Source: Microcoleus sp. AS-A8
Lineage (GTDB): Bacteria; Cyanobacteriota; Cyanobacteriia; Cyanobacteriales; Coleofasciculaceae
Direction of reading: 5' to 3'
Assembly (NCBI GenBank): GCA_039962225.1
Contig: JAMPKV010000002.1
Span: 496,001-560,000, forward strand
Length of the DNA: 64,000 nt
Part shown: positions 55,376 to 62,866 of the stretch, piece after piece
How the letters are laid out: each line of letters opens with the position of its first letter
How positions within the stretch are numbered: the stretch's first letter is position 1
Made by a program: the position numbers and the translations under genes
The notes under the pieces: model-generated
What the model was told of the DNA's origin: nothing
The model's input: only the letters and a program-made list of their open reading frames with translations
Databases searched by the model: none

Positions 55376-57880
55376 TCATGCAAACAGCCGCTCGGTAATT
55401 TGCCACGCTTGGGATTGAAGGGTAGATAGGGGCACTTGATAGAAATACTGACGCAGAAACTGTTCTTCTTCAACAGCGGCTAGAAATTTTTGGATGGCTT
55501 CATTAACAGCAGAGTCAGTTACTTCTAGCGAGGGTTGTCCGCTAATGGCGATCGCCCAATCTTTGTGTTTGACATTAAAACCAATTTGTGATATTAAATC
55601 CAGTCCCAAATGGAGAATGCGATCGCTCAAATCCAGCTTTTCTTGCAATTGCACCAAAGTCGCCGTTTGTCCCGTGCGGCAGAGGAATTTGGCAATTCCC
55701 ACGAGTTGTTTCCAGATTTCAGCCGGTGATAGTTGGCTGGGAGGTGGATAAGCCAGCGCTAATTTTCGATTCGATGCGATCGCACGGCGAAACCAGATTT
55801 GCAGTTCGTCCCAACTGGTGGGACACTCGCTAACCGTGAGGGGAGCAATCGATTTGGGATTGGGATTTTTCCCCATCTCCTCATGCCTCTCCTCACTCAG
55901 TCTTGCTGCGCTATCAGTAAAGCTTTGGCTTTCCATCTCCTCATCTACACCGCGCCAGTCTAAAATCCAATCTAATCGGGTGGGAATACTAAACGAGGAT
56001 AGATCCACCCGTGAACGCACCGCCAGTAATCGCACTTCGGGGCGTTTTTTGTAATTGTTGTAATCTAGTTCAACAATCGCATCGCATCTTCCTTTAGGGA
56101 CTTCATCTCTGTAGTGTCCCCACCAGATCCCAGGGAATCCGCTATGGCAAGAGTTGTCCCAAATTTCAAATTCAGTTTTAATGAATTGTACTTTTCGTCC
56201 TTTAAAGTCTTGGGTATTGTAGTTTCTAACTTCCTCAAACCAACAGTTTTGAATCAGCAGTTTCGGCACAGGATTTCCCATGCCACAGGGTTCGAGTAGT
56301 TTAAGTTCATAAAATAATTCTTTGCCCAACTCGGCTATGGTTACAATCAGGTCAGCTTCGAGTACGGGAGTGAGCGAGGCACCTGTAGTCGATACTTGTT
56401 GCCGTAACTGTTGGTTAATCGCTTCAGTAAACAGGGGCAGATTTTCAACTAAGAGACTCAATCCTGCGGCAAACGGATGACCACCAAAGCGATGCAGCAG
56501 GTGTTCTTGGGACTTCACCAACTGATAAAGGTCAATATTATTCACAGAACGCGCAGAACCCCTGGCAAATTTTGGAGGATCGGGTTGTGATTGAGACTGG
56601 ATTATTGTCGCTTCCTGCGCCTTATTTTCTAATTTATAATCAACATCATTTTCTGTACTTAACAAAATAGTAGGGCGTCCATATTGCTGAGCAATTTGCC
56701 CTGCAACTAAGCCGAGAACACCAGCAGGCCATTGAGAGTCTTCAAGGACAATGACACTCGTGGTTGAAAGGTCAATTTGCTCAAGTTTGGCTTTCACTTG
56801 CTGGGTTACATCTTTTTGCAAAGACTTACGGCGAGTATTGGCTAATTCTGTTTCGGTTGCCAGTTGTTCGCAGCGCTTTTCATCCGTACTGGTGAGTAAT
56901 TCCACACAGAAAGATGCATCGCCTTGAATGCGGCTAACGGCGTTAATTCGGGGGCCTAGTCCGAAGGAAATATCGGTGGGGCGATCGCCATTTCTCTGGC
57001 ATAATTCCAATAAGCGAGCCACACCGGGACGTGTGATTTTGGATTTTTGGGTTTGGGTTTTGGATTGTTGTTGCAGGCGTCTAATTCCGAGTTGTGCCAG
57101 GTAGCGACAATCTCCACTGAGTTGGACTAAATCAGCAATTAATCCAATGGCTACCAAATCTAACAAGTTTTCTAACGGTTGTTGGGGAACATCGGGTAAG
57201 GTTTGATAAAGGGCTTCTATTAACTTGTAGGCAACCGCAACACCGGAAAGATGGAACAGGGGATGGTCGGGGGAAAAATAGCGGGGGTTGATAATCGCCT
57301 TGACAGGTGGACGCTGTGCTGGGAGGGTGTGATGGTCGGTCACAATCACATCAATTCCTAGGGTTTGAGCATAGTCAATTTCCCTTAGATTGGTGCTACC
57401 CGTATCGCAGGTTACGATTAATCGACAACCCTGTTTTTGCAACGCATCAATACCCTGATGATTCAGACCATGAGATTCTGTGAGGCGATTGGGAATATAG
57501 TAAATGAGCTGCCACTCTTGCGGTAAAAACTGTCCTAAGCCTTCCCAGAGAACGGCGGTTGAAGTAATGCCATCGGCGTCAAAGTCTCCCCAAATTGCCA
57601 CCATTTCACCGGTTCGGCAAGCTTGTTGCAAGCGTTCCACCGCCCAGTGCATTTCTTGCCCAAATTCAAAGGGATTCGCGGGTTGGTAAAAATCTGGATT
57701 TAAGAAACCGGGCAGTGCAAGAGCATCACGGATGCCCCGTTTCCATAAAAGTTGGGCCGCATGATGCCCATCTCTATCGCTTGGAACTTGAGCGAGCACA
57801 TGGGGTTTGATGGCATCTAGGAACCATTGGGGGATTTCAGACGGTGGCGAGACTTGCCATTGCAGTTGGGGTTCAGGCAT
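55376..57880 (-). CDS. recJ: Single-stranded-DNA-specific exonuclease RecJ
   Basis: An 834-residue DHH-family 5'-3' exonuclease of recombinational repair. Motifs: IWGDFDADGITSTAVL (motif I), LIVTCDTGS, VIVTDHHTLP (DHH), and HRFGGHPFAAGLSLL of the DHHA1 domain. A cyanobacterial C-terminal extension of about 200 residues follows. Three low-complexity in-frame insertions are visible: SKTQTQKSK (57037-57067), KAQEATIIQSQSQPDPPK, and a charged stretch around EEMESQSFTDSAARLSEE (55860-55945). Confidence 0.94.
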   Translation of the reverse strand: MPEPQLQWQVSPPSEIPQWFLDAIKPHVLAQVPSDRDGHHAAQLLWKRGIRDALALPGFLNPDFYQPANPFEFGQEMHWAVERLQQACRTGEMVAIWGDFDADGITSTAVLWEGLGQFLPQEWQLIYYIPNRLTESHGLNHQGIDALQKQGCRLIVTCDTGSTNLREIDYAQTLGIDVIVTDHHTLPAQRPPVKAIINPRYFSPDHPLFHLSGVAVAYKLIEALYQTLPDVPQQPLENLLDLVAIGLIADLVQLSGDCRYLAQLGIRRLQQQSKTQTQKSKITRPGVARLLELCQRNGDRPTDISFGLGPRINAVSRIQGDASFCVELLTSTDEKRCEQLATETELANTRRKSLQKDVTQQVKAKLEQIDLSTTSVIVLEDSQWPAGVLGLVAGQIAQQYGRPTILLSTENDVDYKLENKAQEATIIQSQSQPDPPKFARGSARSVNNIDLYQLVKSQEHLLHRFGGHPFAAGLSLLVENLPLFTEAINQQLRQQVSTTGASLTPVLEADLIVTIAELGKELFYELKLLEPCGMGNPVPKLLIQNCWFEEVRNYNTQDFKGRKVQFIKTEFEIWDNSCHSGFPGIWWGHYRDEVPKGRCDAIVELDYNNYKKRPEVRLLAVRSRVDLSSFSIPTRLDWILDWRGVDEEMESQSFTDSAARLSEERHEEMGKNPNPKSIAPLTVSECPTSWDELQIWFRRAIASNRKLALAYPPPSQLSPAEIWKQLVGIAKFLCRTGQTATLVQLQEKLDLSDRILHLGLDLISQIGFNVKHKDWAIAISGQPSLEVTDSAVNEAIQKFLAAVEEEQFLRQYFYQVPLSTLQSQAWQITERLFA

Positions 57881-58089: not shown

Positions 58090-58177
58090 TATCCGGACGC
58101 CGTGAGCAAGATATGGGATTAAGCAGTAGATGCACCCTGATGACCGCCCTCAGCAACTCGCTGAGGGTTTTTTATTG
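58090..58177 (+). repeat. Roughly 90-nt repeated element with intrinsic terminator, copy A
   Basis: Shares a block of over 25 identical bases (58127-58154, beginning TAGATGCACCCTGATGACC) with copies at 58964 and 62775, followed by the same hairpin. Its upstream part (TCCGGA ... GGGATTAA) is a diverged version of the segment in the other copies. No plus-strand gene ends upstream, so the terminator must serve a non-coding transcript if it is active. Confidence 0.85.
58147..58173 (+). terminator. Intrinsic terminator of element copy A
   Basis: CCCTCAGC (58147-58154), loop AACTC, GCTGAGGG (58160-58167), then six T. A perfect 8-bp GC-rich stem plus T-run on the + strand only. Confidence 0.85.
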
Positions 58178-58200
58178 GAAGGCGATCGCACACAACACAT

Positions 58201-58286
58201 TAGACCTGTTGAAAAAGTTGAATCAACCCCCGTTATAAAGGGGAGACCTGGGAAGAAGTGATTCAAGGATTTTTGCCAGAAGTCTA
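58201..58286. mobile_element. 86-bp MITE-like foldback element
   Basis: The left end TAGACCTGTTGAAAAAG with TTGAATC is matched by the inverse of the right end (TAGACTTCTGGCAAAAATCC with TTGAATC when reverse-complemented); about 19 of 25 positions agree. The centre has CCCC/GGGG arms. TA at both outer ends fits a TA target. Parts of its right end plus flank recur at 60711 and 61069. Confidence 0.6.
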
Positions 58287-58386
58287 TTAGCCAAGCCGAT
58301 TGCACCCCCAACCAAGTCGAGAGTATTCCGCCGATACCTCTAGTTGTTACTCTAGAGGAGTTGATCATGTCCAAAGGACAGTAAAA

Positions 58387-58815
58387 ATGGTACAAGCCAA
58401 ATCGGGTGACACTGTCAAAATTCACTATACGGGCAAACTAGACGATGGCACCGTGTTTGATTCCTCCGTCAACCGTGAACCGTTAGAATTCACACTTAAT
58501 CAGGGACAAGTCATCCCCGGCTTCGAGGAAGCGGTGATGGGAATGGCTCCTGGAGAATCAAAAACTCAAAAAATTCCTGTGGATCAAGCCTATGGCCCTT
58601 ATCGAGAAGAAATGGTGATCCAGGTCAACAGAGAACAACTGCCGCCAGACTTGGAACCGGAAGTCGGTCAGCAATTACAAGTCCAACAGCCGAATGGGCA
58701 AGCTGTTCCAGTTTTTATTACAGAGGTTTCTGATGGCAAGGTAACCTTAGATGCCAATCATCCTCTGGCTGGCGAGAACCTAACGTTTGATATTCAGTTG
58801 GTTGAAATCATCTAA
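58387..58815 (+). CDS. FKBP-type peptidyl-prolyl isomerase, SlyD-like
   Basis: 142 residues from ATG 58387 (MVQAKSGDTVKIHYTGKLDD). FKBP core GTVFDSSVNREPLEFTLNQG with VIPGFEEAVMGMAPGE, then the IF (insert-in-flap) domain typical of SlyD (YGPYREEMVIQVNREQLPP) and the returning strand NHPLAGENLTFDIQLVEI. It acts as a folding chaperone and proline isomerase in the cytosol. The His-rich metal tail of E. coli SlyD is absent. The in-frame extension to 58300 is not needed. Confidence 0.92.
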   Translation: MVQAKSGDTVKIHYTGKLDDGTVFDSSVNREPLEFTLNQGQVIPGFEEAVMGMAPGESKTQKIPVDQAYGPYREEMVIQVNREQLPPDLEPEVGQQLQVQQPNGQAVPVFITEVSDGKVTLDANHPLAGENLTFDIQLVEII

Positions 58816-58963
58816 ATTCTGAGAGTATACCGACTCAATCCGCCGAAATTGGCAAACTATATGAACTCCATGTGATATCTTCGCTGGTGTAGCAGCAATT
58901 TCTAATCGTCAGGGACTTTGGCTAATCCCCCTGGCCTTTTTAGCGGGTGAGGGGATTTCTTGA

Positions 58964-59056
58964 ATTTTTCCGGATACCTTCAGATTCATGTCGGATTAAA
59001 AAACAGTAGATGCACCCTGATGACCGCCCTCAGCCCCCCCGCTGAGGGTTTTTTTT
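58964..59056 (+). repeat. Roughly 90-nt repeated element with intrinsic terminator, copy B
   Basis: Shows the upstream module TTTTTCCGGATACC then CATGTCGGATTAA (shared with copy C) and the block GTAGATGCACCCTGATGACC. It lies between the 3' end of the FKBP gene (58815) and the 3' end of the cyclase gene on the other strand (59071). Confidence 0.9.
59027..59056 (+). terminator. Intrinsic terminator of element copy B
   Basis: CCCTCAGC, six-C loop, GCTGAGGG, then eight T. Same stem as copy A with a different loop. Confidence 0.88.
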
Positions 59057-59070
59057 GGGCAAATACTGTC

Positions 59071-60678
59071 TCAACGCCTCTTCGTCTGATAAACCTGTAT
59101 CGCTCGGTCAATTCCCTTGAAACGGTGTTCTCCCATCTCCTCTAAACCCTGATGATGCGACAGCATTTGATAGGTTGCTTCACTCAAGACGCATTCACCA
59201 GGGGGACAGATGCCTTCCATGCGGGAAGCTAGATTGATTGTGGCTCCTAATGCCGTATAGTCTACCCGTTGAGAACTGCCGACATCACCAACTACGGCCT
59301 TTCCACTATTAATCGCAATTCGTAATTGCAGAGGTTCGCGCAAGACCTGATTGGCATTCAGATTCTCTAAACGAGTTAGCATTCCTTGGGCGGCGGCAAC
59401 AGCCCGGTCGGCATGGTCTTTTTGAGGTTCAGGAGCGCCAAAAAACGCCATGATGCAATCACCAATATACTTATCCAAAGTCCCGCCGAGGGCGAAAACT
59501 TCTTGCAACATTTCCTCAAACAAACCATTGAGTAATTGGGCAATTTCTGTGGGGCTTAACCGTTCTGAGAGCGCCGTAAAGCCCACAATATCTGCAAAAA
59601 GAATACTGATTTCACTCTCTTGGGGAGATAAACGACCGTCTGGTAATGCACCTACTGATATCAACTGTTGCACGACAGCTGGAGAGTGATATCGCTCTAA
59701 TCTTTGCCGAATCATTTCTTCACTTCTGAGCTTTTGTTGCAAGAGCCAACGTTGCACACTAGAGGCTACGAGGTTCGCTAAAGTTGAAAAAAAACTGAGG
59801 TCTTCTTCTCCTTCTTCTGCCCAATGGATTGAAGAAAAATGGGCATCGGCATACAGAACACCGACCACCTTATTTTCATCCCAGAGGGGAACAGCCATGG
59901 CGCTACCAATGTTTTTGAGTAAGATACTCTGTTGCCCCTCAAAACGTTGATCGACTTGGGCATCCGCCGTTTGAATCGCCACTTTTTCTGTAAATGCTTT
60001 TTGACAGATAGTTTGGCTAATCCAACTGCCATCAGGAGACAAATTCTTCTGGTGGGAGACATTTCGGGTTGCAGCATTGAGCAATTCAAGTTGCCCTTCA
60101 CCACTCACATCAATTAACAACGCTAATCGATCAATACTCTTCAGGTAACGAAAAACGACCTCCTGTACCTGAAAGAATATTGCTTCTATCGATTCAGCCG
60201 CACTCAGACTCTTAGCTATCTCCACCAAGTCTTTGAGGCGGGCAATCGTCTTGTCTTTGTTGCTGATATCATCACGGTCAGCACTCGCTTGTATCCAATG
60301 CTGTTGCAGTTCTTTGACATTGTGAAGGATGGTGGCTCCTTTTGCTGAGGGGGGTTCCTGTGTTGTATTCGCTGGAGGCGGCTCGACCAAAATAACCACA
60401 AGCCTAATATCTCCCAGCCAAATTACATCGCCGTCCTTGATCTTTTCCGGCGAAGTCACAGGGCGTTGATTCATGAGTGTCCCATTTTTACTCCCCATAT
60501 CCTCAATCGTCCACACCCCGGAGGCCGTTTTTAACAAGCGGGCATGGTATCGAGAAATTCCCTCGAAAGGCAAGTTTAAGTTACATTCGGGCAATCGACC
60601 GATCGTAAATTCCTCCCGATTCACCGACACCGTTTTTTCCGTATTTTCCCGTTTTAGGCGCAGTTTAAGTTCAGCCAT
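59071..60678 (-). CDS. FHA-GAF class III adenylate cyclase
   Basis: 535 residues, soluble. FHA domain (1-90; FTIGRLPECNLNLPFEGISRYHARLL in parts, SKNGTLMNQRPV) binds phosphothreonine; GAF domain (about 155-305); catalytic class III domain (about 345-525) with metal Asp residues in LFADIVGFTALSERL and YIGDCIMAFFGAP, the adenine-selecting Lys in LDKYIGD and Asp in VDYTALG, and transition-state Asn/Arg in INLASRME. Complete set, so active cAMP synthesis is expected. The FHA domain and the nearby Ser/Thr kinase make phosphorylation control plausible (inference). Confidence 0.93.
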   Translation of the reverse strand: MAELKLRLKRENTEKTVSVNREEFTIGRLPECNLNLPFEGISRYHARLLKTASGVWTIEDMGSKNGTLMNQRPVTSPEKIKDGDVIWLGDIRLVVILVEPPPANTTQEPPSAKGATILHNVKELQQHWIQASADRDDISNKDKTIARLKDLVEIAKSLSAAESIEAIFFQVQEVVFRYLKSIDRLALLIDVSGEGQLELLNAATRNVSHQKNLSPDGSWISQTICQKAFTEKVAIQTADAQVDQRFEGQQSILLKNIGSAMAVPLWDENKVVGVLYADAHFSSIHWAEEGEEDLSFFSTLANLVASSVQRWLLQQKLRSEEMIRQRLERYHSPAVVQQLISVGALPDGRLSPQESEISILFADIVGFTALSERLSPTEIAQLLNGLFEEMLQEVFALGGTLDKYIGDCIMAFFGAPEPQKDHADRAVAAAQGMLTRLENLNANQVLREPLQLRIAINSGKAVVGDVGSSQRVDYTALGATINLASRMEGICPPGECVLSEATYQMLSHHQGLEEMGEHRFKGIDRAIQVYQTKRR

Positions 60679-61113
60679 GACTTCGATACCTTATGAAGCG
60701 AACAAGGTCTGCCAGAAATTTATTAGGCAAGGGGCTTCTCGTTGGGTCAAACTTCACCTCACCGCAAGGTTATGGCATTGCCCTGATGGCCCAAGGGACG
60801 CTACCCTGAAAGGGTAATCGCTCCCCTGTCAATCTACAAGTCAGGGTCGGCCTGATCAGGGAATCGTTTGGGTGTTAAGCGATCGCGCCCATAAAATTGC
60901 ACTTGGCGCAGGGGCATCTTTCCCATTCCAAAAAAGTTTCAAAAATAGGCTCATACCAAACTGAATGTTTGTCAGCTTCAAACTTGCGCGGGTGTCGAGT
61001 TGCTGTACATCCGAGGTTCATCCACACATATGTTTACAAAAATCCGGAAACACGGTTTCTGGCTTGAAAAGTCTATTAGGCTAACGGTTTACTGCGGGGG
61101 AGCGAGCAATACC
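60679..61113. other. 435-bp divergent region between cyclase and kinase
   Basis: Promoter region for both signalling genes. It holds two words resembling the foldback element end, 60711-60731 (GCCAGAAATTTATTAGGCAAG, 18 of 21 bases equal to 58275-58295) and 61069-61085 (AAGTCTATTAGGCTAAC), and a HIP1 site at 60881. The kinase frame is open through the right part (61000-61113) but I treat it as leader. Confidence 0.65.
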
Positions 61114-62754
61114 ATGATAGGCGCATTACTAGACCAGCGTTACCAGGTGGTTCGAGTTCTAGGCCAAGGCGGATTTGGTCATACTTACATCGCCGAAGAC
61201 ACTCGCCGACCGGGCAATCCCACTTGTGTGGTCAAACATCTCAAACCCGCTTCTCGCGACCCCGAATTTTTGCAAATTGCTAGACGCCTATTTACTCGCG
61301 AAGCCGAAACTCTGGAAAAGTTGGGCAATCATGACCAGATTCCTAGACTTTTAGCTTACTTTGAGGAAAACCAAGAGTTTTACCTAGTCGAAGAATTTAT
61401 CGACGGACATCCGCTCAATGTGGAACTGGAACCTGGTCAGCCGTGGAACGAAAGCCAGGTGATTCAACTGCTGCAAGAAGTCTTACATATCCTAGATTTT
61501 GTCCACACTAACGGTGTGATCCATCGCGACCTCAAACCTGAGAATTTAATCCGTCGCAAGCACGATAACAAAGTCGTTTTAGTGGACTTTGGTGCCGTTA
61601 AGCAAGTGCAGATGCAATCGATCGTTGCCCAAGAACTGGTCAAAGAGACGGTTGCCATTGGTACTCCAGGTTACATGCCCAGCGAACAGGGACAAGGCAG
61701 ACCTCGTACTAGTAGTGATCTTTATGCTCTGGGCATGATTGGTATCCAAGCCCTAACCGGCATGAATCCCACCCAATTTGGAGAAGACCCGGATACGGGA
61801 GAAATCATCTGGCAGCAACAGGCTCAAGTCAGCGAGGCGTTGGCGGCTGTCCTGGGTAAGATGGTACGCCATTACTTCAAATACCGCTACCAGTCAGCAA
61901 CCGAGGCATTGCAAGCGCTGGAGCCACTCGCCAATCCCAACGCAGCAAAGGCTTTTGCGGCGATCGCGAGTCAGAGAGTCCGTTACTACCTCAGAGATGG
62001 CTATCAGTCTGCCTCTAAGGTGCTGCAAACGATTCAGAATATATCTGCTCTGAAGACGCGACAGGCGATCGCCTCACTGAAGTCTTTGCCCTCAGGTCAA
62101 GCCGCTTTGCCATCGAGCAATTTGATGGAGGAAACGGCAACCGTTCCTCGGAACAATCCTTCGCGATCGCCAATGGGTGCGGGTTCTTTTTCTGGAATCC
62201 CTAACAAATTGCCCCTAATCCTGGGAACAAGTGCCGCTACTCTAGTCGTTGCCGCCGGTATTTTTTCGATGGTTCGTCCACCCTCACCCTCTGCGGTGAC
62301 AACGGCGAATAAAACGAACGCCATACCTGACCCTAATAAATCGAACGTCACACCTGAACCTGAGAAATCTGACTCAAAATCTGAACCTGAGAAATCTGAC
62401 TCAAAATCTGAACCTGAGAAATCTGACTCAAAACCTGAACCTGAGAAATCTGACTCAAAACCTGAACCTGAGAAATCTGACTCAAAATCTGAACCTGAGA
62501 AAGTGCAAGACCCAAATGGTTGTACTTTCACGATGAGAAGATCATCAAATGTACGAGAATCACCCAGAAGTAAAAAAACCGGGGAAGTTATCAAATCAGG
62601 AACCCCAATCACTGTTACTGGAAAAGAACAAAATGGCTATATAGAGATTAGCTCTCCGACCCCCGGTTGGGTTTATAAGAATCGTACTAAAAAAACTTGC
62701 CCTAAACCCAAGAAAGCTGATGCCAACAAGAGTGAGCGATCAGAAAGTCCCTAA
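61114..62754 (+). CDS. Membrane Ser/Thr protein kinase with SH3b domain
   Basis: 546 residues from ATG 61114 (MIGALLDQRYQVVRVLGQGG). Hanks-type kinase (10-270): glycine loop GQGGFGHTY, Lys in CVVKHLKP, HRDLKPENL catalytic loop, VDFGAVKQV, GTPGYMPSEQ. A single membrane helix (LPLILGTSAATLVVAAGIF) is followed by about six copies of EPEKSD(S)K and an SH3b domain (RRSSNVRESPRSKKTG, GWVYKN). The SH3b part is predicted to bind peptidoglycan outside the cell. Start chosen because it gives the canonical kinase N-terminus; the frame continues to 61000. Confidence 0.92.
   Translation: MIGALLDQRYQVVRVLGQGGFGHTYIAEDTRRPGNPTCVVKHLKPASRDPEFLQIARRLFTREAETLEKLGNHDQIPRLLAYFEENQEFYLVEEFIDGHPLNVELEPGQPWNESQVIQLLQEVLHILDFVHTNGVIHRDLKPENLIRRKHDNKVVLVDFGAVKQVQMQSIVAQELVKETVAIGTPGYMPSEQGQGRPRTSSDLYALGMIGIQALTGMNPTQFGEDPDTGEIIWQQQAQVSEALAAVLGKMVRHYFKYRYQSATEALQALEPLANPNAAKAFAAIASQRVRYYLRDGYQSASKVLQTIQNISALKTRQAIASLKSLPSGQAALPSSNLMEETATVPRNNPSRSPMGAGSFSGIPNKLPLILGTSAATLVVAAGIFSMVRPPSPSAVTTANKTNAIPDPNKSNVTPEPEKSDSKSEPEKSDSKSEPEKSDSKPEPEKSDSKPEPEKSDSKSEPEKVQDPNGCTFTMRRSSNVRESPRSKKTGEVIKSGTPITVTGKEQNGYIEISSPTPGWVYKNRTKKTCPKPKKADANKSERSESP
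62352..62500 (+). repeat. 24-bp tandem repeat in the kinase gene
   Basis: About six copies of CCTGAGAAATCTGACTCAAA plus a short joint encode the EPEKSDSK linker. Units are nearly identical, so recent expansion is likely; steps of 24 bp keep the frame. Confidence 0.9.
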
Positions 62755-62774
62755 ATAATTTTCGGACAATTTCA

Positions 62775-62866
62775 ATTTTTCCGGATACCAGGAGATCCAT
62801 GTCGGATTAATAAATATTAGATGCACCCTGATGACCACCCTCAGCAATCCGCTGAGGTTTTTTTTT
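62775..62866 (+). repeat. Roughly 90-nt repeated element with intrinsic terminator, copy C
   Basis: TTTTTCCGGATACC, CATGTCGGATTAA and the block TAGATGCACCCTGATGACC match copy B with few changes. It lies between the kinase 3' end (62754) and the 3' end of the Fe-S protein gene (62882). Confidence 0.9.
62839..62866 (+). terminator. Intrinsic terminator of element copy C
   Basis: CCTCAGC, loop AATCC, GCTGAGG, then nine T. One base pair shorter than in copies A and B. Confidence 0.88.

Follow-up and report, generated by a model that had tools for sequence, protein, structure and literature searches.

Work on the cyanobacterial small RNA NsiR1 has so far dealt with its part in the formation of nitrogen-fixing cells. 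According to passages of the published accounts, NsiR1 of Nostoc is HetR-dependent, has the motif DIF1 (TCCGGA at -35) in its promoter, and represses hetF and the hetP-like gene alr3234, with two versions of the RNA that differ in effect (PMC9045159); the DIF1 motifs of hetR, patS and patX depend more directly on HetZ than on HetR (PMC7377430). In further such passages HetR is described as older than heterocysts and as accompanied by PatX (PMC7761841), the role of HetR and PatX in heterocyst-free filaments is called a mystery (PMC11298460), and one NsiR1-like RNA of 57 nt, RNA162, is reported from Limnospira indica PCC 8005 (PMC8400943). Here we analysed a window of Microcoleus sp. AS-A8 (the whole stretch of 64,000 nucleotides, positions 496,001 to 560,000 of contig JAMPKV010000002.1), in which a short element that ends in a terminator hairpin occurs three times (copies A, B and C). 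By its sequence this element is NsiR1 (Rfam RF02399); the preliminary description of the window, which recognized no known cyanobacterial RNA in the element, was wrong on this point.

Copies A and B reach the curated cut-off of the RF02399 covariance model (39 bits), and all three copies have the traits of NsiR1: an exact DIF1 motif about 35 bases upstream of the putative start, a 5' segment that is predicted to be unpaired and is followed by a terminator hairpin, and several diverged sister copies in the genome, which number 29 in this host. The features, in window coordinates, are as follows.

58126 to 58173, plus strand: NsiR1 RNA gene, copy A (RF02399, 45.2 bits against a cut-off of 39; putative start)
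59006 to 59056, plus strand: NsiR1 RNA gene, copy B (RF02399, 45.4 bits; putative start)
62817 to 62866, plus strand: NsiR1 RNA gene, copy C, the most diverged of the three (RF02399, 36.1 bits, E value 1.6e-4; putative start)
58092 to 58097, plus strand: DIF1 motif TCCGGA of copy A (box start 34 bases 5' of the conserved block)
58969 to 58974, plus strand: DIF1 motif TCCGGA of copy B (box start 37 bases 5' of the conserved block)
62780 to 62785, plus strand: DIF1 motif TCCGGA of copy C (26 bases past the kinase stop codon and 37 before the block)
58146 to 58173, plus strand: terminator hairpin of copy A, 9 bp and T-run (-17.1 kcal/mol, z score -3.8)
59026 to 59056, plus strand: terminator hairpin of copy B, 9 bp and T-run (-17.0 kcal/mol, z score -4.2)
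62839 to 62866, plus strand: terminator hairpin of copy C, 7 bp and T-run (-12.2 kcal/mol, z score -3.2)

With up to three mismatches tolerated, the 19-base core TAGATGCACCCTGATGACC has exactly three sites on the plus strand of the window (58127, 59007 and 62818) and none in 100 shuffles, which confirms a repeated element in three copies of the same orientation. The conserved block GTAGATGCACCCTGATGACC, with a TTAG variant in C, begins 34 (A) or 37 (B and C) bases after TCCGGA, with GGATTAA downstream of the box in each copy, and is followed by a GC-rich hairpin with a T-run. As a chance control, the 14 occurrences of TCCGGA in the window correspond to about 0.002 expected in a span of 8 positions. 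In the predicted folds bases 1-20 of A and B and 1-22 of C are unpaired; these folds leave free the 5' segment GUAGAUGCACCCUGAU of A and B and its UUAG variant in C. The alignment of the copies bears out the earlier remark that the stems are kept while the loops differ (9 bp in A and B, 7 bp in C). Copies B and C share 97 bases at 86% identity, covering both promoter and RNA; the upstream module that had been ascribed to these two copies is real, but it is not restricted to them, as A has a diverged version in which the spacing is 3 bases shorter.

The family extends across the host genome, in which RF02399 gives 23 matches at an E value of 0.001 or less, 15 of them over the cut-off. A search with the seed alone, one mismatch permitted, returned 30 sites and none with the reversed pattern; 29 of these, counting near-match boxes, are RNA genes that have both hairpin and promoter box, and 20 of the 30 have exact boxes. 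Two promoter classes are found: 16 copies are of DIF1 type (11 with exact TCCGGA, 5 with one change), and in 13 the palindrome GGGGTnnnACCCC stands in the place of DIF1 (9 exact, 4 with one or two changes). A motif search of the whole window found no exact palindrome. Among the 16 DIF1-type copies, bases 2-14 are invariant except for one position in one copy, and the arms of the hairpin vary yet still fold. A constant unpaired 5' block with varying hairpins characterizes a base-pairing small RNA that has its own terminator, and not a terminator alone; with the promoter box of each copy and the Rfam match, it supports the earlier proposal of a small RNA family in preference to gene terminators. 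The seed-only search is also the unbiased test of the two classes, because most loci in a wider census (158 DIF1, 161 palindrome and 66 neither, the last comprising 61 near-matches under loose limits and 5 with none) were fetched with the DIF1 or palindrome pattern.

The thirtieth seed site (L250, G000:C11:37242) has neither promoter box nor terminator and sits 45 bases upstream of an oppositely oriented gene; it is a possible target site, within what chance would give. Five palindrome-type copies of the host (L241, L243, L245, L246 and L254) share sequence that extends past the RNA, and in two of them (L245 and L246) a helix-turn-helix open reading frame, XRE-like by eye, lies 140-144 bases downstream, as would result from a joint duplication of RNA and gene.

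The palindrome recurs widely. A scan of named genomes found at least 114 stretches, all titled as cyanobacteria, that hold at least 133 copies; the stretches listed include Anabaena, Dolichospermum, Scytonema and Calothrix, which form heterocysts, and Leptolyngbya, Phormidium, Moorena, Oscillatoria and Coleofasciculus, which do not. Among the matches listed, 132 of 133 copies continue with CTGAT, which the pattern did not demand, 131 of 133 have a terminator-like hairpin, and a clear -10 box is present in 121 of 123 distinct promoters. The gap between palindrome and -10 in these 121 promoters is 15 bases in 61, 13 to 15 in 90 and 7 to 12 in 28, so that the palindrome is mostly located where a -35 box would be. 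Its sequence satisfies the requirement GGGnnnnnCCC published for HetR and is close to the recognition site of hetP, given as GAGGGGTCTAACCCCTC in a passage of PMC4192349. A motif named DIF2 in a passage of PMC10287535 could be identical to the palindrome.

Across a phylum sample of 386 cyanobacterial genomes, NsiR1 over the cut-off occurs in 80 and HetR in 80; 78 have both and 304 neither. The 80 remain from 95 genomes after exclusion of 15 with weak matches (best E value 1e-5 to 1e-3), which we dropped before counting because one control genome matches at the same level; their identity with the genomes that fall short of the cut-off is deduced from the E values. The control in question is E. 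coli, the only one of 14 control genomes with an RF02399 match, which is under the cut-off. The DIF1 pattern was found in 78 of the 386 genomes (4 matches in the control) and the palindrome pattern in 41 (control, 0), with DIF1 also present in 39 of the 41 (exceptions, G229 and G135). Within the family of the host, all 20 genomes have the exact seed, in 3 to 39 copies each (control, 0).

Both promoter types recur at conserved places, DIF1 at hetF and cobM/lgt and the palindrome at gatB/argJ. We compared the genes that flank the host copies with 202 fetched loci, which do not amount to 202 independent cases because some places were fetched from two collections. Among them, 63 match gatB, and in 61 of these an NsiR1 copy, palindrome-type in 57, lies within 900 bases after the gene; for argJ (29 loci) a copy lies within 900 bases before the gene in 28, of which 27 are palindrome-type. 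All 20 loci that match hetF (21 with a shorter query) have a copy on the opposite strand before the gene, 19 of them with exact DIF1, and a DIF1 copy is found near either gene on the opposite strand in all 10 loci that match lgt and all 10 that match a cobM-like gene (cobM is our label for a tetrapyrrole methylase). Of the palindrome copies listed in the named records, 55 of 133 (47 of 114 stretches) lie within 900 bases after gatB.

By contrast, none of the 202 fetched loci corresponds to the places of A, B and C. In the one congener searched (G386) all three copies are in place, each with its box, seed and stem; the simplest reading of A, B and C is therefore that they are lineage-specific duplicates of a promoter-plus-RNA unit.

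By position and sequence, parts of the Nostoc circuit are present in the host: HetR (one protein, 565.9 bits against a curated cut-off of 489), a nearly full-length match to the HetF family NF045509, DIF1 motifs, and an NsiR1 copy at a distance of 124 bases from the hetF start that is directed away from the gene, as in Nostoc, an arrangement compatible with repression of hetF by base pairing. We found no nifH over the cut-off in the host (best match 217 bits against 394), in a search that gave sub-threshold matches in all 14 control genomes, 3 of which passed the cut-off. Because the assembly is given as 100% complete, the host is likely to be without nitrogenase, which falls short of proof. 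Upstream of hetR, at the place expected for PatX, there is a 75-residue open reading frame (L050:872-1099, G000:C11) with a start that looks like a signal peptide by eye; it has no RG(S/T)GR motif and no NCBIfam match, and is preceded by TTTTTCCTGA, which is DIF1 with one change.

We hypothesize, with a probability of about 0.85, that A, B and C are small RNAs of a HetR circuit, members of an NsiR1 family of about 29 copies that would act by base pairing through the 5' segment. Each copy would be transcribed from its own DIF1 promoter into an RNA of about 50-60 nt that stops at its own intrinsic terminator. By analogy with Nostoc, the DIF1 promoters would respond to HetR by way of HetZ, and pairing of the 5' segment with mRNAs near their starts would block translation. 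The 13 palindrome-type copies, to judge from the palindrome itself, may be driven directly by HetR, in which case one RNA family would serve two branches of the circuit. Because the host has no nifH over the cut-off, the output is probably a HetR-dependent state of the filament other than heterocyst formation, and the presence of about 29 copies in a host without a detectable nitrogenase gene suggests that NsiR1 belongs to an older and wider control circuit of filamentous cyanobacteria. The broader proposal, to which we give somewhat less than even odds, is that in filamentous cyanobacteria NsiR1 is both a near-constant companion and an output of HetR, that it predates heterocysts and takes two separate promoter inputs, the direct HetR palindrome and DIF1, and that the 29 copies, tuned to these inputs in a host that lacks nitrogenase, would both report and execute a HetR-dependent cell state.

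Several observations weigh against these proposals. Copy C, with a full-length match, is under the RF02399 cut-off (36.1 against 39 bits) and was grouped with A and B because it has promoter and RNA in common with B, and the score of the host HetF (923.8 bits) is below its cut-off of 1200. The DIF1 step is taken over from published studies of Nostoc, and the position of the palindrome, a putative HetR site, at -35 could allow repression or activation. In the sole palindrome-type RNA that was folded (L229) the hairpin forms with a z score of only -1.1, and 34 of 200 shuffles equal it. A search of the host genome for near-perfect complements of the 14-base seed, with one mismatch permitted, yielded no convincing mRNA target: besides the RNA genes it returned L250 alone, when about 2-3 sites are estimated by chance (reversed control, 0). 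Co-occurrence of NsiR1 with HetR is not independent of phylogeny, so that the value of a Fisher test is inflated by relatedness, and has exceptions: NsiR1 is present but HetR has no match in G229 and G308, and G058 and G083 have HetR with only weak NsiR1 matches, all of which could be assembly gaps or real losses. One further genome (G086) has a DIF1-pattern match with neither NsiR1 nor HetR, which is probably due to chance.

Of three other explanations, all of which we rejected, a mobile or selfish terminator-bearing repeat that has spread across the genome fares best, and is still improbable. The copies are dispersed, their number varies among relatives as the seed counts of the 20 family genomes show, and some palindrome-type copies have flanks in common beyond the RNA. 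Nevertheless, conservation across families is seen at three positions, the congener retains A, B and C, a search with exact seeds of 9 found no inverted repeat of at least 12 bases around any of these three copies, none of five scanned neighbouring genes is a transposase, and the distribution tracks HetR. The mobile terminator cassette that had been considered at first is likewise unsupported, given promoter boxes of the copies' own, the constant 5' block and places kept in the congener; the further copies whose absence would have spoken against a family are present, and the database match is to a known small RNA and not to a known terminator or an end of an insertion sequence.

A slightly poorer candidate, and likewise an improbable one, is that copy A serves the gene downstream of it, which starts 213 bases past the end of A, as a leader or attenuator.

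58387 to 58815, plus strand: FKBP-type peptidyl-prolyl isomerase gene, neighbour between A and B (PF00254, scanned from the second codon; ATG start by eye)

Copy A is on the same strand and upstream, an arrangement that the congener keeps. However, B and C are each followed by a gene on the opposite strand; the element is missing from seven other FKBP stretches that we fetched (L271-L277, some cut by contig ends); and in G391 (L270) a single copy is located after the FKBP gene and not before it. Signalling and folding genes do lie near the three copies, as the preliminary description noted, but they say little as a clue, because the nearest open reading frames of the other copies are, by eye, of many kinds. 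The protein kinase gene at 61000-62754 has a tandem repeat of EPEKSDSK in its linker (window 62360-62500).

Least probable is that the elements are ordinary gene terminators that are alike by accident: copy C follows the same-strand kinase gene by about 65 bases and could end it, and weak RF02399 matches occur elsewhere, such as that of the E. coli control under the cut-off, but upstream of A there is no gene end on the plus strand (recJ, on the minus strand, starts at 57880, in agreement with what had first been noted), the unpaired 5' segment and not the hairpin is most conserved, and the promoter box stands at a fixed spacing in the copies. As a small RNA, copy C may still have a hairpin that doubles as the end of the kinase transcript.

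Because the Limnospira RNA is published, finding NsiR1 in organisms that form no heterocysts is by itself no novelty. The NsiR1 literature covered by title, abstract or passages (the NsiR1 papers of 2010, 2014 and 2020, Elhai and Khudyakov 2018 and supplements lay outside this scope) mentions no HetR-palindrome class, no gatB/argJ place and no co-occurrence with HetR. As far as these searches go, there is apparently no earlier description of two promoter classes, of the gatB/argJ location or of the almost constant association with HetR, which does not prove novelty. NsiR1 would be a further companion of HetR besides PatX. As it co-occurs with HetR, and one class of its copies has a candidate direct HetR site, it would serve as a simple reporter of the times and cells in which HetR is active in heterocyst-free filaments. 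Palindrome and DIF1 on the same RNA would make a natural pair of promoters with which the direct HetR branch could be told apart from that of HetZ.

Compared with NsiR1 of Nostoc (Anabaena) sp. PCC 7120, the RNAs of Microcoleus match the same family, are of similar length (about 60 nt), exist in several diverged copies with DIF1 promoters, and include one copy divergent from hetF. Nostoc sp. PCC 7120, a heterocyst former, has 12 tandem copies upstream of hetF, whereas the host has a single one there (C1:264530) and no tandem array of that type; the window copies lie elsewhere. The only array seen in the host has 4 copies at a spacing of 132 bases and lies between gatB and argJ; in our view the hetF array is a feature of Nostocales layouts and not of NsiR1 itself. 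RNA162 of Limnospira resembles the host RNAs in being NsiR1-like, and comes from a filamentous genus without heterocysts or nitrogen fixation; the passages on RNA162 describe no promoter classes or survey of copies. The palindrome described here, a putative HetR site, differs from the HetR site of hetP in that it takes the -35 position in the promoter of a small RNA. Unlike Nostoc sp. PCC 7120, the host has copies that are mostly single and dispersed, no nifH over the cut-off, and a second set of NsiR1 genes in which a HetR-type palindrome replaces DIF1.

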